This document shows positions 6,299 to 25,878 of a stretch of 64,000 bases of DNA, one piece after another. The DNA is from Castellaniella defragrans (lineage in GTDB: Bacteria > Pseudomonadota > Gammaproteobacteria > Burkholderiales > Burkholderiaceae_B): positions 125,634 through 189,633 of the forward strand of contig NZ_JACHIB010000007.1 of assembly GCF_014203015.1 (NCBI RefSeq), given 5' to 3'. The position numbers were made by a program, and so were the translations under genes. The first letter of the stretch is position 1, and each line of letters starts with the position of its first letter. The notes beneath the pieces were generated by a model. It did not search any database and was not told the DNA's origin. It saw only the letters and a program-made list of their open reading frames with translations.

Positions 6299-6710
6299 GC
6301 GGCGTTCCTGGCGGCAGCCGTATCGGTCATCGGCAAGCGGTCATCGGCAAGCGGTCATCGGCAAGCGGTCATCGGCAAGCGGTCATCGGCAAGCGGTCAT
6401 CGGCAAGCAGTCATCGGCAAGCGGTCATCTTGTTTTACCAGAAAAATTATAAGTTCATATAGAAAACAAGAAACGTCATTTAACGTCATTTTTCCTGAAA
6501 ATTTACGTTTTATAGGGTAAACACCGAACGGAAAACAGCGTGATCTCGTTGTCAACAAACGGCCCATCGATGAACATAGAGTCTCATTCAAATAAGAAAT
6601 CCATTTTCATAAGAGGAAATGGGTTCCGCCTCTCACCACTCACCGAGCCGGCCGCCCGATCCAGGGACGTGCCTGGGGCCGTCCGGTTCGCACGACAAGG
6701 AGCATGAACA
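6299..6710. other. 412-bp divergent intergenic region
   Basis: It separates the IclR gene from the SDR gene. The left third is a 14-bp tandem repeat (6324-6429). The rest, to about 6620, is strikingly A+T-rich for this genome and holds the likely divergent promoters. Two tandem AACGTCATTT decamers lie at 6472-6481 and 6482-6491, and a short palindrome, TTGTCAACAA, is at about 6549-6558. A ribosome binding site (AAGGAG) precedes the SDR ATG. No reading frame here looks coding. Confidence 0.6.
6324..6429. repeat. 14-bp tandem repeat, about 7.5 copies
   Basis: The unit CGGTCATCGGCAAG is repeated head to tail at 6324, 6338, 6352, 6366, 6380 and 6394. A seventh copy at 6408 has one change (CAGTCATC...), and a partial eighth ends at 6429. 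The array begins 26 bp upstream of the proposed IclR start codon and abuts A+T-rich promoter-like DNA, so it lies in the promoter or leader of that gene. Confidence 0.95.
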
Positions 6711-14926: not shown

Positions 14927-15157
14927 TCAGGCGTACGAGACCAGCCCCTTGATCTTCTCCTGGTCGTAGCCCGACCAGGAGCCGTGCTCGGTTTCCACCA
15001 CGGGGGCGCCGCGGTGGCCCAGGCCGATCAGGCGTTCGAGCTCGTCCTGGCGCTGGGTCAGGTCCACGGTCTCGTATTCGATGCCCAGGATGTCCATGTC
15101 GCGCTTGGTGAGTTCGCATTGCGGGCAGTTGGGCTTTGAATAGACGGTGATGGCCAT
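14927..15157 (-). CDS. nrdH: NrdH-like glutaredoxin
   Basis: A 76-residue redoxin with the NrdH-type active site CPQC in SKPNCPQCELTK and the C-terminal GAPVVETEHGSWSGY, where GxWSGY is the usual NrdH signature. It supplies electrons to ribonucleotide reductase. The gene lies 81 bp after nrdB on the same strand, with a GGAT-rich upstream region, and completes an nrdA-nrdB-nrdH order. The next gene (FAH-superfamily) begins 4 bp after its stop. Confidence 0.88.
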   Translation of the reverse strand: MAITVYSKPNCPQCELTKRDMDILGIEYETVDLTQRQDELERLIGLGHRGAPVVETEHGSWSGYDQEKIKGLVSYA

Positions 15158-15238
15158 GTCGGATCCTTTTGGGTCGTGGGGGTTGAGAGAGTGGGGGGCG
15201 GAGGCGCGGGTCCGGGGAATCCAGCGGGTGCGGCGGAT

Positions 15239-16357
15239 TCAGAAATCCACGTCGAACACTTCGTTCTCGTCGTCGCGCTTCATCACGCCGACCTTGTACT
15301 GGGCGGTGTCCTCTTCCTGGTTGGAGGCCTGGACCTTGCTCATGTTGAGCCAGCTTTCCATGTATTTCAGCGGGTTCTCGGTGACGATCGGGAAGGACAC
15401 CCGGTCCTGGACGTTGAAGAAGCGGGCCACGTCGGTGGCGCTGAAATGGACCCAGTCCTTCATCATCTGGCAGGTCACGCCGGTGAGCTCGCGGCCTTCG
15501 GAGAAGGCGTAGTCGGTCCATTCGACCTCGCTGGCGGTGACCTCGTCGATCATCTGGACGATCTTGTCGCGGCATTGCTCGAAGGCGGTGCGGCCGCGCT
15601 CGGTCTTGACCATGGCGCGCAGGACTTCCTTGCCGTACTGGACGTGGACCTCGAATTCGTCCTGGGCGATCTTCTGGACCGCCTTGCCGATGGGCTGGAA
15701 CAGGCCCGTGCCGTCGCAGATGCCGAAGGTGACGGCGAACGAGGCAAGGAACTGGATGCGCTCCATGCACAGCACGGCGACGATGAACAGGTAGATGGCG
15801 TTGTAGGTTTCCTGGTCGTTCTCGCGCTGGCCGCGGGCGTAGTCGTAGCTGACCTCGAAGGCGCGGTTGAAGACCTCGCTGACGACGCGCAGGCGGCTGA
15901 TGGCCTCCTTGACCGAGAGGATCTCGTTGAGGATGTCGTCGGGATTGTCGAAGCTGTTGCGGACGATCTCGGAATACGTGGCGGCGTGGACGATCTCGTT
16001 CTTGGTGATCTCCACCCAGCCGGACCAGGCCTCGCTGCTGGTGCAGACCGGGGCCAGCACGGCGGCGATGGAGCGCGAGGCGACGCTGTCGGCCTCCCAT
16101 TGCCACGCCAGGGTCTTGACCATCATGTCGTAGGTGTGGCGGTCGCAGGTCTTGAACTGCACGTTGCAGGTGGAATAGTCGAACTCGTTCTCGTCCCAGT
16201 CCTGGTTCTTCAGCGTCTTGTAGAGCTTCCAGATCTCGGGATAGAACTTGTTGATCGTGTCGAACAGGCCCAGGTCCTGGCCCAGGATGATTTCCGGGAA
16301 GGCGTAGTCGGACTTGTCGGTGTTGAAGATCTTGGTGGGCAGGGCTTCTTGGGTCAT
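15239..16357 (-). CDS. nrdB: Class Ia ribonucleotide reductase, beta subunit
   Basis: A 372-residue radical-generating subunit. The diiron and tyrosyl-radical signature is intact: an Asp in EADSVASRS, then E-x2-H-x3-Y in NEIVHAATY, which places the radical tyrosine correctly. The second-half ligands lie in QDEFEVHVQYGKEVLRAM. With the alpha subunit it reduces ribonucleoside diphosphates aerobically. The start at 16357 was chosen by family alignment although the frame is open much further upstream through the nrdA region. The C-terminus ends VFDVDF, the short acidic-hydrophobic tail that docks on NrdA. The gap after nrdA is 110 bp. Confidence 0.92.
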   Translation of the reverse strand: MTQEALPTKIFNTDKSDYAFPEIILGQDLGLFDTINKFYPEIWKLYKTLKNQDWDENEFDYSTCNVQFKTCDRHTYDMMVKTLAWQWEADSVASRSIAAVLAPVCTSSEAWSGWVEITKNEIVHAATYSEIVRNSFDNPDDILNEILSVKEAISRLRVVSEVFNRAFEVSYDYARGQRENDQETYNAIYLFIVAVLCMERIQFLASFAVTFGICDGTGLFQPIGKAVQKIAQDEFEVHVQYGKEVLRAMVKTERGRTAFEQCRDKIVQMIDEVTASEVEWTDYAFSEGRELTGVTCQMMKDWVHFSATDVARFFNVQDRVSFPIVTENPLKYMESWLNMSKVQASNQEEDTAQYKVGVMKRDDENEVFDVDF

Positions 16358-16467
16358 TTTCGGGTCGTGCCAGGGGTAGGGGGCGGTCGGAGGCCCCGGA
16401 ACGGTCGTTCGGGGCCGGGGGTCGTGCGGGCCGTGCGGCGCGGGCGGCCCTGATGTCGCGGAAGAGC

Positions 16468-18933
16468 CTACATCGTGCAGCTTTCGCAGACGACTTTTTC
16501 TTCCACGCCGTCGTGGATGCTGCCGGCGTTGTCCAGCGTCTTGTCCGAGGCCACGTTGGAGTTGTAGTAGTAGCGGGTCTTCATGCCGTACTTCACCATG
16601 GCGAAGTAGTGGGTGAGCAGTTCGCGGCTGGAGACCTTGTCGTCGTCTTTGATCCGGCGCCACAGGTCGGCGGAGATCCCCTGGTCGGTGAATTTCTGGA
16701 ACACCGCGTAGGCCTTGATCATGTCGACTTCGGAAATGTCCCAGGCCGACTGGTAGAAGTAGGCCGGGTTGTCGCTGTCGGGCGCGGCCCAGCGGATCGT
16801 GACCGAGCCGTCGGTCTTGTTCAGCGTGACGTCGCGCACGGGATAGAGCGAGTTGGGCTTGCCCAGCGCCTTGGAGGACGATTCTCCCGGCATGTACGCC
16901 ACCAGGCAGGAATGGGCGATGCCGCCGTTCTGCATGATCTCGGTGCGCAGGGCTTCCCAGTCGTAGCGGTTGTGGAAGTCGCCCAGCTCGTCGACGTTGC
17001 GGTTGTAGGTGTCGATCGGCAGCCAGCCGTCGGGCCAGCGGGTCTTGTGCATCCAGGGCGCGACGCCGCGTTCCTTGCTGATGCGCAGCGAGGCCCGGAT
17101 GGCGTGGTACATGTGGCGTTCGGCGATGCGGTGCAGTTCCTCGCGGCCCTCGTCGGTGTCGTAGCGCAGGCCCTTGCGGGCCATGTGGGTGGCCACGCCC
17201 ATCAGGCCCACGCCGGCGTTCATGCGGGCCTTGGCGGTCACGGCCACGTGGGGCAGCACGTAGTGCGAGTTGAGGATGCAGTAGTCGATCATCTTCAACG
17301 TCAGGTACATCGCCTCCTGGTAGGTCTCGTCGTCGTCCTCGCCGATGGCGTCGTAGGCGATGGCGCCCAGGGAGCACAGGGCGATCTCGGGTTCTTCGTG
17401 GGTCTCGACCACGCGGGCGACCCGGCCGCCCTTGCCCGGCTCGTCGGACAGGATGTCGTCGCCCGCCTTCAGTTCGCCGGCGAAGATGACGCGCGGCAGG
17501 GTGGAGTCGGCGACCGCGACGGTCAGCGGCGCGTTGAAGTCGAAGGTCTGCGTCGTTCCGTCGGCGAGCTCGACGGTGATGTGGCCCACTTCCCGGTCGG
17601 AATACAGGTCGCGCATGTCCTGGTAGGGACGGTTGGGCTCGCAGATCTCCAGGCACAGGTTGCTGGAATGGATGGGTTCCTTGAAGGGCGTGTGGCGGTT
17701 CATCTCGTCGATGTTGGCCAGGTAGGCCACGCCGGTCTCCAGCGCCTCGTTCAGCGAGGTCAGGATCAGGTCGCGCGGCTTGAAGGTTTCCTTCTTGAAG
17801 GAGGGGTCGCGCTCCAGGCGCTCGTATTCGCGCTTGAAGGCGGCCGAGTCGGGGCCGAAGAACAGCCGGGTGAGCTCGGGCGCGGTGCGCACGTTGAACG
17901 AGAAGGCTTCCTCGTTGCGGGCGACCTTTTCGGCGAAGAGCTTGTTGGTGACCAGTGCGTAGTGCAGGTCGCGGTTCTTGCGGTCCTCGGTGCTGCGCGG
18001 GTTGCGCAGGTAGGCGATGACCTCGGCCTCGGGGTCGAAGCCGGAATAGTAGGTGGTGCAGGCGCCGCCGCGCCCGGCCTGCATGTTGGCGTGCACCGCC
18101 TTGCCCAGCGAGGCCAGGTAGGGCAGCTTGCCCTGGTGCTGGATCAGGCCGCCGCGCACCGGGTCGCCCTTGCTGCGGGTGATCAGGTGGCTGCCGATCC
18201 CGGCCGAGGCCGCGGTCATGCGGTAGGCGATGTGGTCGCCGATGGCCAGGGACGCCTCGTTGTCGTCCACCACGTACAGGCAGCACGAGGCGAAGCCGCG
18301 CAGTTTGGTGCCCAGGTTGACGTAGTTGGGCGTGGGGGCGGAGATCCGCTTGGCGGAGAATTCGGTGTAGAAGCGCCGCACCAGGTCGATCCGGCGCTCG
18401 GCGGGCTCGTTTTCCGACAGCGCCATGGCCATGCGCATGTAGACGAACTGCTGCGTTTCGTATTCCTGCCGGGTGACGCGGTTCTGCAGGCTGTACTTCT
18501 TGCGGATGTAGTGCAGCGAGAAGTGCGGCGTGTCGTAGTCCTGCTCGTGGTCGATGAAGGACTCGATCTCGGCGTATTCGGCGTCGGTGTAGTCCAGGCG
18601 CACCATCACCCCGTCGGCCACCATGCGGTCGTGCAGGGCCTTGACGGTGGGGATGGCGGGGCCGTGGATGATCTTGTGCAGGTGGGACGCGTACAGCCGG
18701 CCCGCCATCAGGTAGTAGGACCAGGTGCCCTTGTCCAGGCAGTTCTGGATCAGCTTTTCCTGCAGATCGGCGGTGGAGACCGTCTCGGGCATGGTGCTGA
18801 CGGCCTGCAGCACGATGCTGCTCCAGTCGACCTTGTGGCCCAGGTTGGCGGCGGCCCAGCGGCCCCAGCCGTTGAGCTTGCTGGGGATGTAGGGTTCGAT
18901 GCGTCCATCACGCTTGACGATGTTCTTGATCAC
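16468..18933 (-). CDS. nrdA: Class Ia ribonucleotide reductase, alpha subunit (with inserted segment)
   Basis: An 821-residue catalytic subunit starting at GTG, with AAGGA 9 bp upstream. An ATP-cone (IVKRDGRIEPY) spans about residues 1-90. The active-site residues are recognisable: Cys at 217/218 (FASCCLY), the Asn-Cys-Glu triad in SSNLCLEI with Cys427, the partner Cys520 in EIALCSLGAI, the radical-transfer Tyr pair in KTRYYYNS and the terminal CESC. Between Cys427 and Cys520 there are 93 residues where E. coli has 23, so about 70 residues (437-512) are inserted. Several stretches (TRWPDGWLPIDTYN, the short C-terminus) resemble T4-like phage NrdA more than E. coli NrdA. Confidence 0.93.
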   Translation of the reverse strand: MIKNIVKRDGRIEPYIPSKLNGWGRWAAANLGHKVDWSSIVLQAVSTMPETVSTADLQEKLIQNCLDKGTWSYYLMAGRLYASHLHKIIHGPAIPTVKALHDRMVADGVMVRLDYTDAEYAEIESFIDHEQDYDTPHFSLHYIRKKYSLQNRVTRQEYETQQFVYMRMAMALSENEPAERRIDLVRRFYTEFSAKRISAPTPNYVNLGTKLRGFASCCLYVVDDNEASLAIGDHIAYRMTAASAGIGSHLITRSKGDPVRGGLIQHQGKLPYLASLGKAVHANMQAGRGGACTTYYSGFDPEAEVIAYLRNPRSTEDRKNRDLHYALVTNKLFAEKVARNEEAFSFNVRTAPELTRLFFGPDSAAFKREYERLERDPSFKKETFKPRDLILTSLNEALETGVAYLANIDEMNRHTPFKEPIHSSNLCLEICEPNRPYQDMRDLYSDREVGHITVELADGTTQTFDFNAPLTVAVADSTLPRVIFAGELKAGDDILSDEPGKGGRVARVVETHEEPEIALCSLGAIAYDAIGEDDDETYQEAMYLTLKMIDYCILNSHYVLPHVAVTAKARMNAGVGLMGVATHMARKGLRYDTDEGREELHRIAERHMYHAIRASLRISKERGVAPWMHKTRWPDGWLPIDTYNRNVDELGDFHNRYDWEALRTEIMQNGGIAHSCLVAYMPGESSSKALGKPNSLYPVRDVTLNKTDGSVTIRWAAPDSDNPAYFYQSAWDISEVDMIKAYAVFQKFTDQGISADLWRRIKDDDKVSSRELLTHYFAMVKYGMKTRYYYNSNVASDKTLDNAGSIHDGVEEKVVCESCTM

Positions 18934-18984
18934 GGCCGGCAGTCCTTGGTGGCTTGGGGTTCTCCTGCAGAAGACCCCTTTGAT

Positions 18985-19031
18985 TTTCTACATGTAGTGC
19001 GGCTGGAAATGATAAACACAATATATGGTGT
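18985..19031 (-). promoter_or_regulatory. Two NrdR boxes upstream of nrdA
   Basis: ACACAATATATGGTGT at 19016-19031 matches the NrdR consensus almost perfectly. A second, weaker box TTTCTACATGTAGTGC is at 18985-19000. Their starts are 31 bp apart, the three-helical-turn spacing usual for NrdR boxes. They lie 52-98 bp before the nrdA GTG, which points to repression by the chromosomal NrdR protein. Confidence 0.85.
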
Positions 19032-19203
19032 AGGCAAGCGCGGTTTCAAATTCGTCCGTTGAAACATTTTGAGGGTTTCGGCGGCCCCCCGCGTCGTGAT
19101 ACCCTGGAGCGCTTTGGGGGATTTCGCGGCGGTTTTCGCGCCGCGCGATCCCTGGATTTCATCGCCCGGGCCCGCGCGGCCCGGCGATCCTGCGTGTCAT
19201 CCC

Positions 19204-20400
19204 ATGAATGGAATCGTCCGGCTGCTGGCCGTGTCGGCCCTGCTGGGCGGCGCCAGCCTCGCGCCGGCCCGGGCCTGGCAGGCGGCCGACCCGGATGCGG
19301 CGCTCATCGACCTGGCCCCCCAGCGCTATGCCGTCCCCGACGTGCCCCGCGACGTCCCGTCCGACGTCCCCTCCGACGCGGCCGAGGCGGACGTGCCGGA
19401 TGCGTCCGGGGCGGTCGCCGTCCCCGGGCTGCGCTACGACCTGCTGTTCCTGGATGAGCCCGGATACGGGACAGTCCTTGCGGACTGTGACGTGCCTGGC
19501 GAATCCGGGCCGCTTGCAAGCGGCGAGGTGGAGGGATGCTTCCGCCTGCGCTGGTTCGGCTCGGCCGCCGATCCGGCGGCCGGCGCGGGGCCGTCCGGCG
19601 GATTCGGACCGCTCGCCTCCGGCGGCCTGGACGCCTGGACCCTGGGCGCGCGGAACTGGCGCTATCGCAGTTCCGCCGGCTATGGCGTGACGCTGGGCAG
19701 CACGGCCACGGGCGCGCCGGACTGGGGGCGGCCCGTGCGCCTCGCGGGGGTGGGCGTGGCCCGCTCCGTCTCCCAGGGGCGCCTGCCGGCCGGGTCGTGG
19801 GACTACGCGGTGGCGCTCGGCGCCGTGGACACCGGCCGCACGCCCGCCGAGGGCGACCTGGCCTACGGACCGGTCGCGCTCGATGCGACCACGCGCTACG
19901 CACCGGACCGCGACCTGATCCTGGCCTCGCGGCTGCAGAGCGCCCAGGGCCTGACGGCGCTGGGGCTGGGGGGCGATTATTCCATGGGCGGCGCGGGCGC
20001 CTGGCGGTTCGGCGTGTCCGGCTCGCGCCAGCCGCTGGCCGAGGGCTGGCGCCGGCAGCTGGGCTATACCCTGGGCCTGCTGCCGGGCTGGGACCTGTCC
20101 TGGGTGAATGCGCGGCAGGGCGGGGGCTATGCGGACCTGGCCGCGTACGGCGGCGACCCCGGCTGCGACTGCGTCAGCAACCAGTGGCAGCTGGACCTGG
20201 CGGCGGGCCGCTGGGGTTCGTTCAGCGGCTCGTTCGAGCGGCGGCTGGACACGGCGGGCGGCGGGCTGGACGAGCGGGTCGGGCTGGCGCACGGCTTCCG
20301 CTACGGTCCGTACCTGCGGGTGCGCCTGGAAACCAACCGCAACCTGACGTCCGGGGACTACGGCCTGGGCGCGCGGTTCTCGCTGCCGCTGGACTGGTAG
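19204..20400 (+). CDS. Secreted or outer-membrane beta-rich protein of unknown function
   Basis: I do not recognise a named family with confidence. The 398-residue product starts with a good signal peptide (MNGIVRLLAVSALLGGASLA, cleavage near ARA). A low-complexity Pro-Asp-Val-rich segment (about residues 45-70) follows. The remainder has many short amphipathic strands with Gly, Tyr and Trp, ending RVRLETNRNLTSGDYGLG then RFSLPLDW, which looks like an outer-membrane barrel or usher-like domain. A GCDC pair near residue 320 may form a disulfide. Codons at 19453-19530 lie within a copy of the dispersed palindromic repeat. The ATG at 19204 lacks a clear ribosome binding site but gives the only sensible signal peptide. 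Confidence 0.6.
   Translation: MNGIVRLLAVSALLGGASLAPARAWQAADPDAALIDLAPQRYAVPDVPRDVPSDVPSDAAEADVPDASGAVAVPGLRYDLLFLDEPGYGTVLADCDVPGESGPLASGEVEGCFRLRWFGSAADPAAGAGPSGGFGPLASGGLDAWTLGARNWRYRSSAGYGVTLGSTATGAPDWGRPVRLAGVGVARSVSQGRLPAGSWDYAVALGAVDTGRTPAEGDLAYGPVALDATTRYAPDRDLILASRLQSAQGLTALGLGGDYSMGGAGAWRFGVSGSRQPLAEGWRRQLGYTLGLLPGWDLSWVNARQGGGYADLAAYGGDPGCDCVSNQWQLDLAAGRWGSFSGSFERRLDTAGGGLDERVGLAHGFRYGPYLRVRLETNRNLTSGDYGLGARFSLPLDW
19453..19530 (-). repeat. Palindromic repeat element, copy 1, inside a coding sequence
   Basis: Read on the minus strand this matches copies 2 and 3. The outer palindrome GCCGCTTGCAAGCGGC (19509-19524) is perfect. Thirty bases further is a hairpin with 7-bp stem ACAGTCC/GGACTGT (19471-19477 and 19482-19488) around a 4-base loop, followed by the shared GGCTCATCC-like end. 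It is read in frame by the gene at 19204-20400 and adds about 26 residues. Confidence 0.8.
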
Positions 20401-20404
20401 GGCG

Positions 20405-20483
20405 GCGGCGCCGCTTGCAGGCGGCTCTGATTCGTCCGGCACCGATCAGTCCGCAGGGACTGATCGGTGTCCGGCCTCATCCA
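20405..20483 (+). repeat. Palindromic repeat element, copy 2 (possible bidirectional terminator)
   Basis: GCCGCTTGCAGGCGGC (20410-20425) is followed, 30 bases from start to start, by a perfect 13-bp hairpin, CACCGATCAGTCC/GGACTGATCGGTG (20440-20452 and 20457-20469), with loop GCAG, then GTCCGGCCTCATCC. It fills the gap between the convergent genes and supplies the last 11 codons and stop of the methionine sulfoxide reductase gene. The hairpin could stop transcription from both sides. Confidence 0.85.
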
Positions 20484-20964
20484 CGTGGTTCATGAAGACC
20501 CGGCACAGGGCTTCCATCCCGCGCCGGTCGTCCTCGTCGAAGCGGTCCGTGACGGGGCTGTCCACGTCCCAGACGCCCAGCAGCGATCCGTCCGCGCGCA
20601 CCAGCGGCACGACGATTTCCGATTGCGAGGCGGAATCGCAGGGGATGTGCCCGGAGAACCGGCTGACGTCGCGGACGACCTGGGTCCTCCGGGTGCTCGC
20701 GGCCGTGCCGCAGACGCCCGCGCCCAGGGCGATGCGGATGCAGGCGGGCTTGCCCTGGAAAGGACCGACGACGAGTTCCGTGCCGTCGTACAGGTAGAAG
20801 CCCGCCCAGTTCAGCTGCGGCAGGCTGTCGAACACCAGCGCGCTGAAATTGGCCGCGTTGGCGATCAGGTCGGGTTCCCCCGCGATCAGGCCGCGCGCCT
20901 GGGCGGCGAGGTCGGCGTAGTGTTCCGCCTTGCTGGCGTAGGCGCGGGGAGCGAATGTGAACAT
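20446..20964 (-). CDS. msrC: Free methionine-(R)-sulfoxide reductase (GAF domain)
   Basis: A 172-residue single GAF-domain protein of the YebR/fRMsr family, which reduces free Met-R-sulfoxide in the cytoplasm. Family motifs are complete: LNWAGFYLYDG, the substrate-pocket VGPFQGKPACIRI with one conserved Cys, GVCGTAA with the second, and SGHIPCDSASQSEIVVPL with the third, catalytic Cys. The C-terminus (DEAGHRSVPAD) is encoded by the palindromic repeat copy 2 and is therefore unlikely to be conserved. AGGA about 9 bp upstream of the ATG serves as ribosome binding site. Confidence 0.92.
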   Translation of the reverse strand: MFTFAPRAYASKAEHYADLAAQARGLIAGEPDLIANAANFSALVFDSLPQLNWAGFYLYDGTELVVGPFQGKPACIRIALGAGVCGTAASTRRTQVVRDVSRFSGHIPCDSASQSEIVVPLVRADGSLLGVWDVDSPVTDRFDEDDRRGMEALCRVFMNHVDEAGHRSVPAD

Positions 20965-21050
20965 CGGGCATTCCAGGAGACGGTCTGAGGAAATCCCATT
21001 GTAGGGCGGCCGTTGCGGGCCGGCCGCCGGCCGGACCGCGGCATGATGAT

Positions 21051-21074
21051 CGTTATAATCTTGTATATATAGCG
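21051..21074 (+). promoter_or_regulatory. ModE-like (molybdate-responsive) operator over a -10 element
   Basis: CGTTATA at 21051-21057 and TATATAGCG at 21066-21074 form an imperfect 24-bp inverted repeat that closely follows the E. coli ModE box pattern CGTTATAT-N8-ACATAACG as I recall it. A perfect -10 hexamer TATAAT (21054-21059) lies inside, so a bound repressor would block RNA polymerase. The next gene starts 140 bp downstream. Confidence 0.6.
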
Positions 21075-21213
21075 AATGTGTGCCCGACTGGCTTATGCTG
21101 GGCCGGGGGACGTTTGCGCGGCATCAAGGCCGCGTGTCCGATCTCCGCATGACAATGTCGGCGGCGCGGCATGGCGCCTGTCGCCGCCGGATCCGACGCC
21201 AGGAGAACCGCCC

Positions 21214-21753
21214 ATGATCACGCTGCCGATCGCCGCCATCGTCCATGACCACGAGGACGGGGCCGATGCGTTGATGCGCGCCTTCGCCGAGCGCCAGTCC
21301 CGCGCGGGGCTGGACGTGCGCGGCCTCGTGACGGAGCCGGGCGGCGAGGAGGCGGGCCGGTCCCGGCGGCGCCTGCGCGACGTCCGGACCGGCGAGTCCT
21401 TCGAGATTTTCCAGGACCTGGGCGCGGGATCCCGGGCGTGCTGCCTGGACGTCTTCCGGCTGGCGGCGGCCAGCGCCGCGCTGCGCGTGGCCGGGAATGA
21501 CCGCCCGGACCTGGTGGTCGTGAGCCGATATGGCCGCCAGGAAGCGGGCGGCGGCGGTTTCGCCGCGGAGTTCCTCGCCCTGATGGCCGAGAGCATTCCG
21601 GTGCTGACCATCGTCGCCGGGGAATTCCTGGAGGACTGGCGGCACTTCACCGGCGGCCTGGGCGTGGAGCTGCCCGTGGATGCCGATCTGTTGAACGAAT
21701 GGGGCGCGCGGGTGTGCGCGATGCCCGCGCGGAACCGATGGATGATGGCATGA
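21214..21753 (+). CDS. DUF2478 family protein (molybdenum-associated, function unknown)
   Basis: A 179-residue cytoplasmic protein that resembles DUF2478. The N-terminal strand-turn-helix PIAAIVHDHEDGADALMRAF is followed by GLDVRGLVTEPGGEE, a central DVRTGESFEIFQDLG, PDLVVVSRYGRQEAGGGGF and the late VPVLTIV-like strand. It has a Rossmann/P-loop-like alternation but no true Walker A. DUF2478 proteins are known mainly as neighbours of molybdate transport genes, and the reaction is unknown. AGGAGA lies 7 bp before the ATG. Its stop overlaps the start of the methyltransferase gene (ATGA), so the two are translationally coupled. Confidence 0.78.
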   Translation: MITLPIAAIVHDHEDGADALMRAFAERQSRAGLDVRGLVTEPGGEEAGRSRRRLRDVRTGESFEIFQDLGAGSRACCLDVFRLAAASAALRVAGNDRPDLVVVSRYGRQEAGGGGFAAEFLALMAESIPVLTIVAGEFLEDWRHFTGGLGVELPVDADLLNEWGARVCAMPARNRWMMA

Positions 21754-22562
21754 ATGACGACGCCTTGACGATCGAGGACCTGGATTTCGCCCGGCTGTAC
21801 CGCAATCACATGGCCCGCAGCGGCCGTCCGCCGAAGCAGGCGGGCGAGTGGGACGCCCGGGTCAGGAAGAACGGCATGCCCCTGGCCGGTACGAGCGGCT
21901 ATGCCGGCGAATTCCTCTCGCGCATGGACCTGAGCGGCGCGCGCACGCTGCTGGACGTGGGCTGCGGCCCCGGCACCATCTGCCTGCCGCTGGCCGGGCG
22001 CCTGGAGCGCGTCTACGGCCTGGACTACAGCACGGCCATGCTCGACGCCCTGCGTGAGCAGGCCGCGCGGCAGGGCGCCGGCAACGTCGCGGCGATCCAT
22101 CGCGCCTGGGAGGACGACTGGTCCGACGTGCCGGTCTGCGACATCGCCGTGGCCTCGCGCGCCTCCAACGTGGCCGACCTGGATGCCGCGCTGGACAAGC
22201 TGTCGGCCCATGCCCGCCTGCGCGTCTACCTGACGCATCTGGTGGGCGGGCATTTCATGGATCCCGCCGTCGCGGACATCGTGGGGCGCGGCCACCAGGG
22301 GTTTCCGGACTACATCTACGTCCTCAACCTGCTGCACCGCAAGGGCATCCATCCCCGCGTGGACTATATCGAAGTGCCCAGCCGCCTGGCGGGGACGGCC
22401 TCGTTCGAGGCCTTCGCCGCGCGGGTGTCCTGGACCTATCCGGACCTGGGCGAGCAGGAGCTGGCCCGCCTGCGCGCCTGGCATGATGCCGACCCCGCGC
22501 GCGCGGCCCGGGGCGGGGCGCCGATGCGGTGGGCCTTCATCCATTGGGAGAAAACGGCATGA
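21750..22562 (+). CDS. Class I SAM-dependent methyltransferase
   Basis: A 270-residue methyltransferase with motif I LLDVGCGPGTICLPLAGR, acidic motif II at VYGLDYS, and motif IV-like CDIAVASRASNV. The C-terminal half includes HLVGGHFMDP and a domain that I cannot assign. The start at 21750 overlaps the DUF2478 stop by ATGA; an ATG four codons earlier (21738) is the alternative. Its own stop overlaps the ATG of a 31-residue Mop-like ORF, again as ATGA. The methyl acceptor is unknown. The ModE-type box and Mop remnant suggest a link to molybdate or a molybdoenzyme, which is inference. Confidence 0.82.
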   Translation: MNDDALTIEDLDFARLYRNHMARSGRPPKQAGEWDARVRKNGMPLAGTSGYAGEFLSRMDLSGARTLLDVGCGPGTICLPLAGRLERVYGLDYSTAMLDALREQAARQGAGNVAAIHRAWEDDWSDVPVCDIAVASRASNVADLDAALDKLSAHARLRVYLTHLVGGHFMDPAVADIVGRGHQGFPDYIYVLNLLHRKGIHPRVDYIEVPSRLAGTASFEAFAARVSWTYPDLGEQELARLRAWHDADPARAARGGAPMRWAFIHWEKTA

Positions 22563-22654
22563 AAAAAAGCGCGCGCAACCTGGGCCTGGCCGTGGGCGAA
22601 TCCGTGCGGGCGATCTTCAAGGCCTCCAGCGTCATCGTCGGCGTGCCGGGCTGA
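22559..22654 (+). CDS. 31-residue ORF: internally deleted Mop/TOBE molybdate-binding domain
   Basis: The ORF MKKSARN-LGLAVGESVRAIFKASSVIVGVPG begins in an ATGA overlap with the methyltransferase stop. MKKSARN equals the usual start of molbindins (MKxSARNQ). LGLAVGESVRAIFKASSVIVGV equals their usual end (x-LGL-x-VG-x5-A-IKASSV). The roughly 35-40 residues normally between these parts (of about 70) are missing without loss of frame. It is therefore probably a remnant of a molybdate-binding Mop protein, or conceivably a minimal functional form. A weak GGCGGG/CCCGCC hairpin at 22660-22677 follows. Confidence 0.65.
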   Translation: MKKSARNLGLAVGESVRAIFKASSVIVGVPG

Positions 22655-22746: not shown

Positions 22747-25700
22747 TTGTCCGAATCTCGCGGCACGGGTCCCCGCACAGGATTGCTCGACAGCCTCAGG
22801 GCGCGCCTGTTCCTGGCGGTGCTGGCGGTCATCGTGCCGCTCCTCTGCGGGCTGGGCTATTACGTCTGGCATCAGTACCGCGGCCTGGCGGCCGGCAGCG
22901 AGCGCGCGGCCGAAAACCTGGTCAGCGTCACGGCGGCCTACGACCGGGCGCTGATCAACGACGCCAGCGACGTGCTCCACACCCTGGCGAACTCCCCCAT
23001 CCTGCGCCACGAGCGCTGGGCCGAATGCCGCGGCTACCTGGCGTCGCTGCTGGCGCGCCTGCCGCGCTACCTGAACCTGGGCGTGACCGACGCGCGCGGC
23101 TACCAGGTCTGCTCGGGCCTGCCCGACCCCGATCCCAACGGCGTCTACCTGGGCGACCGGCCCTATTTCCGCAAGGCCATCGAGCAGGCCGAGGTCACGC
23201 TGGGCGGCTTCATCATCGGGCGCATGTCCAACCTGCCCACGCTGGTCCTGGCGGTGCGCGTGCCGGGCGATTCCGGCGCCAACGGCGGGGTGGTCTTCGG
23301 CGGCATGAACCTCGGCTACCTGCGGGCCGGCGCGGCCATTCCCGACCTGCTGCCGGGCGGGCGCCTGTGGATCCTGGACCGCGAGGGGCACGTGCTGCAG
23401 CGCGTGCCGGGCGACACCAGCCACCTGGGCGAGCGGCTCGATCCGCATCCGCCCCACGAGGACGGGCTGGTGCGCGGCACCCACCTGGACGCCGACGGCC
23501 GCCGCTGGGTCACGATGTCCATGACGGCCGGCCCGCGGGGCGATCCGCACGGCCTGTCGGTGCGCTACGAGGTGCCGGAATCGGTGCTCTACGGCGAGGC
23601 CCGCCGCGCCCTGTGGGTCGGGATGTTCATCGTCGCGCTGCTGCTGTGCGTGGCGGTGCTGGCGGCCTGGAACCTGATGCAGCTGGCGGCCGGGCGCAGC
23701 CTGGAGCACCTGCGCGGGGCCGTGCGGCGGCTGGCGTCGCAGGACTTCTCCGGGCGCGTGGCCGACCGGCTGCAGGGGCGCGACCTGCGGGAGATCGGCC
23801 AGCAGTTCGACGACATGGCCGATGCCCTGCAGTCGTACCAGCGCTCCCTGGCCCAGTCCGAGCAGAGCTACCGGCTGCTGTTCGAGGGCAGCCCCAATCC
23901 GATGATGGTGCTGAGCCTGGACAGCGGCCGCTTCCTGGCCGTCAACGACGAGGCGATGCGCCGCTACGGCTACGGCCGGGACCACTTCCTGCGCCTGGGC
24001 CTCGACGACCTGCGCATCGAGGTGCTCGAACACCAGCCGGACACCGCCTTTTCCTACGAGCGCCACCGCCGCCGCGACGGGCAGCCGCTGTTCGTCGAGG
24101 TCCGCAGCCTGTCGCTGATGTTCACCGGCCAGCTGGCCCACGTGCTGGTCATCCGCGACCTGACCGAGCGCGAGACGCTGAGCCGCGGGCTGAAGGAACG
24201 CGAGCGCCTCATCAGCCAGCTGATGGACGTCACGGCGGAAGCCATCTACGGGCTGGATGCGAGCGGCTGCTGCATCTTCGCCAACCAGGCCTGTTCGCAC
24301 CTGCTGGGGTACGACCACCCCGACCAGCTGGTGGGCCAGCACTTCCACAGCCTGATCCATGACCGGCACGAGGACGGCAGCCCCTATCCGCTGGAGGAAT
24401 GCCGCATGCACCTGGCCCTGCGGGAGGGCAAGGGGATCCACGTGGACGACGAGGTCCTGTGGCGCCGCGACGGCACCTGCTTCCCGGCGGAATACTGGTC
24501 CTATCCGATCCTGCAGGACGGCCGGCTGGAGTTCTGCCTGGTGACGTTCCTGGACATCAGCGAACGCCGCGCGCAGCAGCGGGCGCTGGCCTACCAGGCC
24601 ACCCACGATCCCCTGACGGGGCTGCTGAACCGCGGCGACATCCTGCGGCGCCTGCAGGCGCGCTCGGAACAGGCCCCCGAGGCGCCCTGGACCCTGGTCA
24701 TGTCCAATCTGGACGGCTTCAAGGAGGTCAACGAGGCGCTCGGGCACGACGCGGGCGACCGGCTGCTCCAGGCGGTCGCGCAGCGGCTGCAGGGGCTGCT
24801 GGGCCCGGCGTGCATGCTGGCCCGGCTGGGCAGCGACGAATTCGCCTTCCTGCTCGACACGGGCGACGAACACCTGGCGCAGGAGCAGGTCCACGTGCTG
24901 CTCGCCGCGCTGCGCGATCCGTTCGCGCTGAACGACCTGCAGATCCGCATCAGCTGCAGCTTCGGCCTGGCCGTGCATCCCGGCCATGCGCGCGATCCGG
25001 ACGAGCTGGTCCGCTGCGCCGACACCGCGATGCGCCGCGCCAAGCGCGACGGCCTGGGGATCGCCGTGTTCAATCCCCAGGACCGCGCCAGCGTGCACGA
25101 CCACCTGCTGCTGCGCGGGGAACTGCGCACGGCGCTGGCGCAGGGCCAGTTCCTGCTGCATCTGCAGCCCAAGGTCTTCCTGAACGACGGCCTGCGGGCC
25201 TCGGGCTCGCCGATGGGTTTCGAGGCGCTGACCCGCTGGATGCACCCGGAACGGGGCCTGATCCCGCCGGGCCGGTTCATCCCCATCATCGAGGTCAGCG
25301 ACCTGATCCATCCCTTCACCCTCTGGGTCGTGGACCAGGCGGTGGCCTGCTGCTCCCGGCTGCAGGCCGTCCATCCCGGCGTCGGCATGGCCGTGAACGT
25401 GTCCGCCCGCAACCTGCTCGACGGCCATTTCCCCAGCCAGATCAGGGACGCCCTGCTGCGCCACGGGCTGGACCCCGCGCTGCTGGAGCTCGAAGTCACC
25501 GAAAGCGCCATCATGGCCGACCCCACCCGGGCGCTGGACACCCTGCACGCCCTGCACGCCCTGGGCGTGCGGCTGTCGATCGACGATTTCGGCACCGGCT
25601 ATTCCTCGTTCGCCTACCTGAACCGGCTGCCCGTCGACGCGCTGAAGATCGACCAGTCCTTCGTGGCCGGCATGGCCGCCGATGCCGACATGCGCGCCAT

Positions 25701-25878
25701 CGTGCGCTCCATCATCGAGATGAGCCACACCCTGGGCCTGATGGTGATCGCCGAGGGCATCGAGACGCAGGAAACGCTGGACCTGCTGTGGAACATGGGC
25801 TGCGACGTCGGCCAGGGCTACTTCATCGGCCATCCGGCGCCCGAGTCCAGCGCCGAGGCCTGGCTGCGCGGCCGCTGA
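22747..25878 (+). CDS. Membrane sensor with PAS, GGDEF and EAL domains (c-di-GMP turnover)
   Basis: A 1043-residue inner-membrane protein. TM1 lies at about residues 17-40, an extracytoplasmic Cache-like sensor at about 45-275 (with DRPYFRKAIEQAE), TM2 at about 285-310, and a HAMP-like linker comes next. Two PAS regions (about 370-480 and 490-610) lead to GGDEF with the site degenerate as GSDEF (about 695-699). EAL has intact EAL (826-828) and DDFGTGYSS (946 on). It is therefore more likely a c-di-GMP phosphodiesterase than a cyclase. Translation starts at TTG, supported by GGGAGG 7 bp upstream; no ATG lies near. Confidence 0.9.
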   Translation: MSESRGTGPRTGLLDSLRARLFLAVLAVIVPLLCGLGYYVWHQYRGLAAGSERAAENLVSVTAAYDRALINDASDVLHTLANSPILRHERWAECRGYLASLLARLPRYLNLGVTDARGYQVCSGLPDPDPNGVYLGDRPYFRKAIEQAEVTLGGFIIGRMSNLPTLVLAVRVPGDSGANGGVVFGGMNLGYLRAGAAIPDLLPGGRLWILDREGHVLQRVPGDTSHLGERLDPHPPHEDGLVRGTHLDADGRRWVTMSMTAGPRGDPHGLSVRYEVPESVLYGEARRALWVGMFIVALLLCVAVLAAWNLMQLAAGRSLEHLRGAVRRLASQDFSGRVADRLQGRDLREIGQQFDDMADALQSYQRSLAQSEQSYRLLFEGSPNPMMVLSLDSGRFLAVNDEAMRRYGYGRDHFLRLGLDDLRIEVLEHQPDTAFSYERHRRRDGQPLFVEVRSLSLMFTGQLAHVLVIRDLTERETLSRGLKERERLISQLMDVTAEAIYGLDASGCCIFANQACSHLLGYDHPDQLVGQHFHSLIHDRHEDGSPYPLEECRMHLALREGKGIHVDDEVLWRRDGTCFPAEYWSYPILQDGRLEFCLVTFLDISERRAQQRALAYQATHDPLTGLLNRGDILRRLQARSEQAPEAPWTLVMSNLDGFKEVNEALGHDAGDRLLQAVAQRLQGLLGPACMLARLGSDEFAFLLDTGDEHLAQEQVHVLLAALRDPFALNDLQIRISCSFGLAVHPGHARDPDELVRCADTAMRRAKRDGLGIAVFNPQDRASVHDHLLLRGELRTALAQGQFLLHLQPKVFLNDGLRASGSPMGFEALTRWMHPERGLIPPGRFIPIIEVSDLIHPFTLWVVDQAVACCSRLQAVHPGVGMAVNVSARNLLDGHFPSQIRDALLRHGLDPALLELEVTESAIMADPTRALDTLHALHALGVRLSIDDFGTGYSSFAYLNRLPVDALKIDQSFVAGMAADADMRAIVRSIIEMSHTLGLMVIAEGIETQETLDLLWNMGCDVGQGYFIGHPAPESSAEAWLRGR

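Follow-up and report, generated by a model that had tools for sequence, protein, structure and literature searches.

Introduction

What are a DUF2478 protein and a methyltransferase doing behind an operator that resembles those of the molybdenum regulator ModE? The question is raised by a short operon in the window, that is, the whole 64,000-nucleotide stretch of DNA that we analysed. The first-pass annotation had counted three molybdenum signs in this operon and suggested a molybdenum-responsive system with a methylation step that it did not recognise as described. We propose that the locus is probably a ModE-repressed molybdenum-scarcity operon, and that DUF2478 and the methyltransferase serve as accessory enzymes of molybdenum acquisition.

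Results

Organization of the operon

The operon contains the following features.

21049 to 21076, no strand assigned: ModE-type operator ATCGTTATAATCTTGTATATATAGCGAA, agreeing with ATCGYTATATA-N6-TATATARCGAT at 19 of 22 positions
21054 to 21059, plus strand: TATAAT, probable -10 element within the operator (read from the sequence)
21201 to 21205, plus strand: AGGAG, likely ribosome-binding site for DUF2478 (read from the sequence)
21214 to 21753, plus strand: DUF2478 protein, 179 aa (PF10649, E 6.9e-52; predicted THEP1-like NTPase fold)
21750 to 22562, plus strand: class I SAM-dependent methyltransferase of 270 aa that carries the motif RAWEDDW (Pfam, NCBIfam, alignment, model and Foldseek)
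22559 to 22654, plus strand: remnant of a tandem Mop (di-Mop) gene, 31 residues (comparison with di-Mop proteins)

The operator includes the 24-bp inverted repeat CGTTATAATCTTGTATATATAGCG at 21051 to 21074, so that the repeat over a TATAAT box, as first described, holds at these coordinates. In the parts of the literature consulted, the ModE consensus is printed as ATCGCTATATA-N6-TATATAACGAT and ATCGNTATATA-N6-TATATANCGAT (PMC2700814, PMC545781). A sigma-70 scan gave no -35/-10 pair at its threshold at the operon promoter. The methyltransferase starts within the ATGA of the DUF2478 stop (21750) and the Mop fragment within the ATGA of the methyltransferase stop (22559), which confirms the two overlaps by which the annotation had joined the three genes. 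The 5′ neighbour is a divergent GAF-domain gene (20446 to 20964) and the 3′ neighbour a PAS-GGDEF-EAL gene (22747 to 25878); neither has an apparent connection with molybdenum. Further away, on the minus strand of the window (14927 to 18933), frames resemble by eye NrdH and the large subunit of a class Ib type ribonucleotide reductase.

The third gene is a Mop remnant

The third gene had been called a truncated Mop protein. Its 31 residues (MKKSARNLGLAVGESVRAIFKASSVIVGVPG) do come from Mop; they are better described as the remnant of a tandem Mop gene of the kind that follows the methyltransferase, with no recognisable HTH, in two relatives (G199, locus L133; G128, locus L142). We identified the fragment by eye and by comparison with such di-Mop proteins. 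The start of domain 1 is joined to the end of domain 2, the middle is missing, and about 110 codons are gone. The start of the fragment reads MKKSARN, compared with MKTSARN in the first Mop domain of L133, and its end reads LGLAVGESVRAIFKASSVIVGVPG, compared with LELAEGGRVGAIFKASSVIIGAPA in the second (16 of 24 identical). If about 110 codons were lost in frame, this structure would result. Judged by its sequence, the fragment is a broken remnant of a di-Mop gene and one more tie to molybdenum. It is not a complete Mop/TOBE domain, which takes about 65 residues.

Two other origins were considered. The tail of a ModE gene came into question because in G074 (L074) a full ModE follows the methyltransferase, and was set aside because the ends of the fragment match the di-Mop protein of L133. 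Collapse of a Mop repeat by the assembler is unlikely by reasoning, as less than one domain is left.

The operon box is the closest match to the ModE core in its genome

Over the 64-kb window, the 22-position consensus score reached 19 at the operon box and did not exceed 13 elsewhere. The whole genome was scanned with the core pattern CGTTATAN10TATAACG, allowing up to three mismatches, and the 22-position score was computed on loci. Four places were found.

Place 1: the operon box, one mismatch, score 19
Place 2: C5:111565, two mismatches, score 14, flanking genes not tied to molybdenum
Place 3: in front of a ModD gene followed by DUF364, about 300 bases from the matched ModD start, two mismatches, score 17
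Place 4: in front of a modABC operon, about 180 bases from modA, three mismatches, score 17

Thus, no place in the genome comes closer to the core ModE pattern than the operon box, and the three top scores among the four places (19, 17 and 17) all precede molybdenum-linked genes. The genome holds the pieces apart, as a boxed DUF2478-methyltransferase pair, a boxed ModD-DUF364 pair and a boxed modABC operon, whose modA and modB score above their NCBIfam cut-offs. The second ModE-boxed operon, ModD followed by DUF4213/DUF364, occupies L060:6842-8840 (C26, about 18841-20839); by eye, a G+C-rich stretch repeats itself between its box and ModD.

A ModE is encoded on C6. Its HTH scores just under the cut-off (TIGR00637, 94.3 bits against 98.5), one Mop domain lies above the cut-off (63.2 against 55) and a second is degenerate, and over the whole protein the best match is NF007957, a molybdenum-dependent regulator (132.6 bits; cut-off 369). 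The HTH and the single Mop match, taken with the low whole-protein score, suggest a ModE that has diverged and in which the second Mop domain is degenerate. A stand-alone ModE-type HTH with no evident TOBE domain was seen elsewhere (L062 near 6325-6570; C3:68324-68569), near frames that by eye resemble heavy-metal resistance genes. The genome also encodes a nitrate reductase, NarG, and an enzyme of the formate dehydrogenase type, which suggests that the cell has a use for molybdenum. A third PF00384 match is NuoG-like and was not counted as a molybdenum enzyme.

It could be argued that the box is an AT-rich spacer that happens to resemble a ModE site before an ordinary metabolic operon. The reversed control pattern does occur more often in this genome than the ModE pattern at up to three mismatches (25 places against four). 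Thus, the number of weak matches is uninformative, and the argument rests on closeness and location. The operon box lies within the promoter and matches CGYTATAN10TATARCG without a mismatch, whereas the reversed pattern finds no match in the genome at up to one mismatch.

ModE boxes near the genes of relatives

The location of boxes in other genomes bears on the same point. Across 60 loci (667,535 positions), 15 sites score at least 18, each no more than 0.6 kb upstream of the first matched cluster gene or, at L051, of DUF2478. The presence of such genes was the criterion by which these loci had been selected; two of them are E. coli copies, and one contig appears twice. In 40 methyltransferase-bearing genomes, 73 sites, spread over 34 genomes, match CGYTATAN10TATARCG with no more than one mismatch. 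Thirteen of these sites, in 12 genomes, fall within 7 kb of the methyltransferase, against an expectation of 0.31 that takes genome sizes as approximate and ignores contig ends (Poisson p about 3e-17). The reversed pattern occurs at 115 places by our own sum, a comparison of counts, not of positions; thus, the total is not enriched and placement alone is informative.

Boxes of at least 17 were found within 7 kb upstream of the methyltransferase at 20 of 56 loci, and downstream at four; at three of these four (L044, L046 and L050) they belong to the TonB genes of the same clusters. The remaining 36 loci show no such upstream box, and at 30 of them at least 3 kb of upstream sequence is covered. 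The first-pass annotation had suggested scoring the promoters of homologous DUF2478-methyltransferase pairs. The outcome was mostly favourable, with limits. A box of at least 17 lies within 7 kb upstream of the methyltransferase at 7 of the 26 loci with both genes, and one of at least 16 at 9 of 26; among the others, L033, L034 and L035 allow no judgement, as their sequence breaks off inside the TonB gene or immediately ahead of it. No box was found for any of the seven pairs in g9, a genus that includes the Bordetella petrii contig L047, or for the four in g25 (0/7 and 0/4). In the one g9 genome that was inspected (L176), a good box stands before modA. A ModE HTH was found in 39 of the 40 methyltransferase-bearing genomes, above the cut-off in 27; the argument is weak, as ModE is widespread (present in 7 of 14 control genomes). 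Two more boxes, of 19 and 20 out of 22, occur at L177:5034 and L178:5021 (G176 and G182), with no molybdenum reference match nearby.

The unboxed g9 pairs and the frequent reversed pattern, in this genome and over the 40, are what one would expect of a chance resemblance. Because of the closeness and position of the operon box and the recurrence of the association in 12 of 40 genomes, we reject this explanation as highly improbable, though weak matches are no commoner than those of the reversed control. ModE regulation of the operon is likely on this comparison of sequences.

Gene neighbourhoods in relatives

The three molybdenum signs first noted were upheld, and the relatives add ModD, ModE, MolA-like and FecCD proteins, TonB receptors and more ModE boxes. 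Sixteen loci came from a contig scan with the methyltransferase. At the Acidovorax locus L035, a TonB receptor comes first, followed by DUF2478, a periplasmic binding protein, a FecCD permease, an ATPase, the methyltransferase, DUF4213/DUF364, ModD and ModE; modA- and modB-like genes are additionally present in Comamonas (L033) and another Acidovorax (L038). The L035 binding protein matches MolA (HI_1472, 3psa) at E 1.5e-13, and two uncharacterised binding proteins match it better. MolA is described as a molybdate-binding protein in the part of the literature consulted (PMC4031551). In E. coli (L048), Pectobacterium (L044) and Proteus (L050), the set is binding protein, FecCD, ATPase, methyltransferase, ModD and TonB receptor, with no DUF2478 match at these three loci; Klebsiella (L045) has the enterobacterial set with no ModD match.

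One genome, G384, carries the DUF2478-methyltransferase pair after ModE boxes and a molybdopterin oxidoreductase. The pair is followed by a radical-SAM protein, a TonB receptor, a FecCD transporter, an O-methyltransferase-type protein and DUF364, and past DUF364 by a further box and a second molybdopterin enzyme. This large molybdenum cluster (L169 and L180) includes DUF2325 and three ModE boxes of at least 18. Two unrelated lineages have DUF2325 in the vicinity of DUF2478 and of molybdenum genes (L169:1460-2785 and, in Methylorubrum, L185:3243-4496).

The E. coli cluster, a ModE-boxed set of six genes (L048:9184-15660), adjoins ymgE. Its box scores 20 of 22 and begins 50 bases before the annotated binding-protein gene; that at L049 scores 19 of 22. 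Of 5,426 complete E. coli genomes, 2,094 cover at least 80% of the cluster. K-12 MG1655 has no cluster genes between ymgE and ycgY, and in a spread listing of 40 records the whole cluster occurs in 16 and only a flank of 53-64 bases in 24. The annotation given to the binding protein reads ‘iron ABC transporter substrate-binding protein’.

In the window itself, no match to a MolA-like binding protein or a FecCD permease was found. The genome has no close MolA-like protein; the best match (E 1e-9, on C11) adjoins a distant FecCD transporter, with no box of at least 16 nearby. The methyltransferase occurs within the genus only in this genome (1 of 10) and in 33 of 268 genomes of the family (both at E 1e-20), and in 6 of 399 order genomes and 5 of 398 phylum genomes at E 1e-40, draws that include its own genome.

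These observations raise the question of whether the operon is a decaying relic of a former full molybdenum-uptake cluster that has lost its transporter and Mop, leaving two irrelevant genes and a leftover box. A Mop gene reduced to 31 residues, a methyltransferase found in one of ten genomes of the genus and the absence of a close MolA-like protein would all fit such a history. We nevertheless regard it as unlikely. Both frames are open, the methyltransferase retains its invariant residues, and no other place in the genome matches the core as closely as the box. Moreover, ModD-DUF364 has been kept behind a box of its own, and bare DUF2478-methyltransferase pairs persist in other genera.

DUF2478 has a predicted THEP1-like fold

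DUF2478 matches PF10649 over its full length (175.7 bits against a cut-off of 22.3; 1-159 of 159). PDB sequence relatives were absent up to E 1. In a Foldseek search with the predicted model (pLDDT 88.8), the sole match below E 0.001 was 2i3b, a human nucleoside triphosphatase that we take to be THEP1 (E 1.9e-4, probability 1.00, TM 0.64, rmsd 4.3); the next was a KdpD sensor domain (E 0.003). The predicted fold is thus that of a THEP1-like NTPase, apparently minus the P-loop lysine. All 11 aligned members lack a Walker A lysine in the P-loop region, a stretch placed by eye, which makes NTP hydrolysis by DUF2478 doubtful.

DUF2478 occurs in 47 of 268 genomes of the family. It had been described as a molybdenum-neighbour family. 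This does not hold throughout: in 23 of 40 family stretches of about 10 kb around DUF2478, none of the 12 other reference proteins matched, one of the 23 (L094) giving no DUF2478 match either. DUF2478 as a dedicated molybdenum protein was not upheld, since nine g4 genomes have no reference matches nearby, the gene content there being inspected in one genome (L072). In Thioclava, DUF2478 lies two genes on from a narGHJI set, and in Methylorubrum it is near modA and glp. On two Azospirillum plasmids it comes after a TusA-type gene; there (L183 and L186), a protein of about 400 residues annotated DUF2478 directly follows the TusA-type sulfurtransferase.

The methyltransferase

The methyltransferase matches Methyltransf_25 (E 4.4e-11, for the longer frame from 21699), and a Pfam scan returned only methyltransferase domains above the cut-off. 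It contains the SAM motif LDVGCGPGT, and a Rossmann-type fold is supported by Pfam, the model (pLDDT 87.3) and Foldseek, the model resembling many class I enzymes. D-x-GCGPG, RAWEDDW and ASR are common to 16 aligned methyltransferases, and the window protein keeps the invariant residues of this alignment; in the tree it is placed without strong support. Among the 25 of 28 NCBIfam families listed, no named equivalog reaches its cut-off, the best score being that of CpaM (34.8 bits against 180). Profile, PDB sequence and fold searches did not identify a substrate.

The enzyme might act on a protein or RNA as part of a response to molybdenum scarcity, with ModE control of the operon as we propose and no molybdenum ligand as its substrate. 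Similarity in the SAM-binding region does extend to rRNA, tRNA and protein methyltransferases, PDB sequence matches include protein-arginine and RNA methyltransferases, and the pair can occur with no dedicated transporter at the locus. We consider a macromolecular target distinctly improbable. The best 50 fold neighbours are mostly small-molecule methyltransferases, Pfam shows solely methyltransferase domains above the cut-off, and the genes often lie among transporter genes. A position beside DUF364 and ModD suggests that the enzyme may work on a small ligand, whether to build it or to free molybdenum from it.

Discussion

Based on these results, we favour ModE repression of an operon that serves molybdenum acquisition. 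The operon structure, the box, the presence of ModE and the linkage to molybdenum genes are supported by comparison; we infer repression in vivo, a small-molecule substrate and the role of DUF2478. The argument draws on the closeness and position of the operon box, a ModE encoded in the genome, and weaker boxes before modABC and ModD-DUF364. It also draws on the gene neighbours in relatives, the placement of the 15 best-scoring sites, and 13 of 73 sites near the methyltransferase where 0.31 were expected. Against it we count the 36 of 56 loci with no upstream box, the g9 pairs, none of which is boxed though modA is in one genome, and a reversed control that is commoner (115 against 73). We also count the genome’s lack of a close MolA-like protein, the matches to protein-arginine and RNA methyltransferases and the failure of the searches to name a substrate.

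In our model, when molybdate is sufficient, ModE-molybdate would occupy the box, cover the -10 element and block transcription. Once molybdate becomes scarce, both DUF2478 and the methyltransferase would be made, along with ModABC and ModD-DUF364, which have similar boxes. The two proteins may then act as accessory enzymes, as their copies in relatives lie among TonB/FecCD-type uptake parts. The most likely substrate of the methyltransferase is a small molecule that serves to bind, carry or release molybdenum, and DUF2478 would be its partner with a nucleotide-binding fold.

A broader proposal can be made tentatively. ModD, DUF364, the methyltransferase and DUF2478 may form a ModE-controlled module that makes or dismantles a small-molecule molybdenum carrier, that is, an undescribed metallophore or ligand-release pathway. 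In many bacteria this module would have its own TonB/FecCD, and the six-gene version, with methyltransferase and ModD, would be present in 2,094 of 5,426 E. coli genomes. The ligand could be, for example, of a pterin, pyridine or catechol type, modified for instance by methylation. ModD is a relative of quinolinate phosphoribosyltransferase. To our knowledge, neither ModD nor DUF364 has a tested role. In the parts of PMC2954201 consulted, DUF364 (PF04016) is proposed to take part in the synthesis of pterin/flavin-like metal chelators, based on structure and on a gene context that includes molybdate/tungstate genes. If the proposal is true, the ‘iron transporter’ of these E. coli genomes would be re-labelled as a molybdenum system. 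It is of interest because ModE boxes in one genome and gene order in others tie ModD, DUF364, the methyltransferase and DUF2478 into one testable pathway, and if right, it would add an enzymatic step to molybdenum uptake.

The methylation step was rightly noted as one not recognised as described. The literature searched, as far as its text was accessible, held no description of the DUF2478-methyltransferase pair or of its control by ModE, and mentioned DUF2478 only as a table entry on archaeal plasmids. An earlier prediction of the pair’s regulation may possibly exist in regulon databases only.

How does the operon compare with known systems? Like Mop or molbindin (TOBE domain) and di-Mop proteins, the third gene retains the SARN start and the FKASSVIVG end; it is short by about 110 residues and would not be expected to form a normal molybdate-binding barrel. 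DUF2478 shares its predicted fold with the THEP1-type NTPase 2i3b but, across the 11 aligned proteins, differs from it in the P-loop lysine. The operator has the architecture of those of the ModE regulon (E. coli modABC-type), and ModE and modABC are both present in the genome; the controlled genes differ, as DUF2478 and the methyltransferase are not among the targets named in the parts of the literature consulted. DUF364 adjoins the methyltransferase in several relatives, and in the window’s own genome it stands with ModD behind a ModE box; the consulted parts of the DUF364 paper make no mention of DUF2478, the methyltransferase or ModE boxes (PMC2954201). Last, the clusters of relatives share a MolA-like binding protein, a FecCD permease and an ATPase with MolABC of Haemophilus influenzae (HI_1470-1472), and add, in varying sets, a TonB receptor, the methyltransferase, ModD, DUF364, DUF2478 and ModE boxes. 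Of these accessory genes, the window retains only two.
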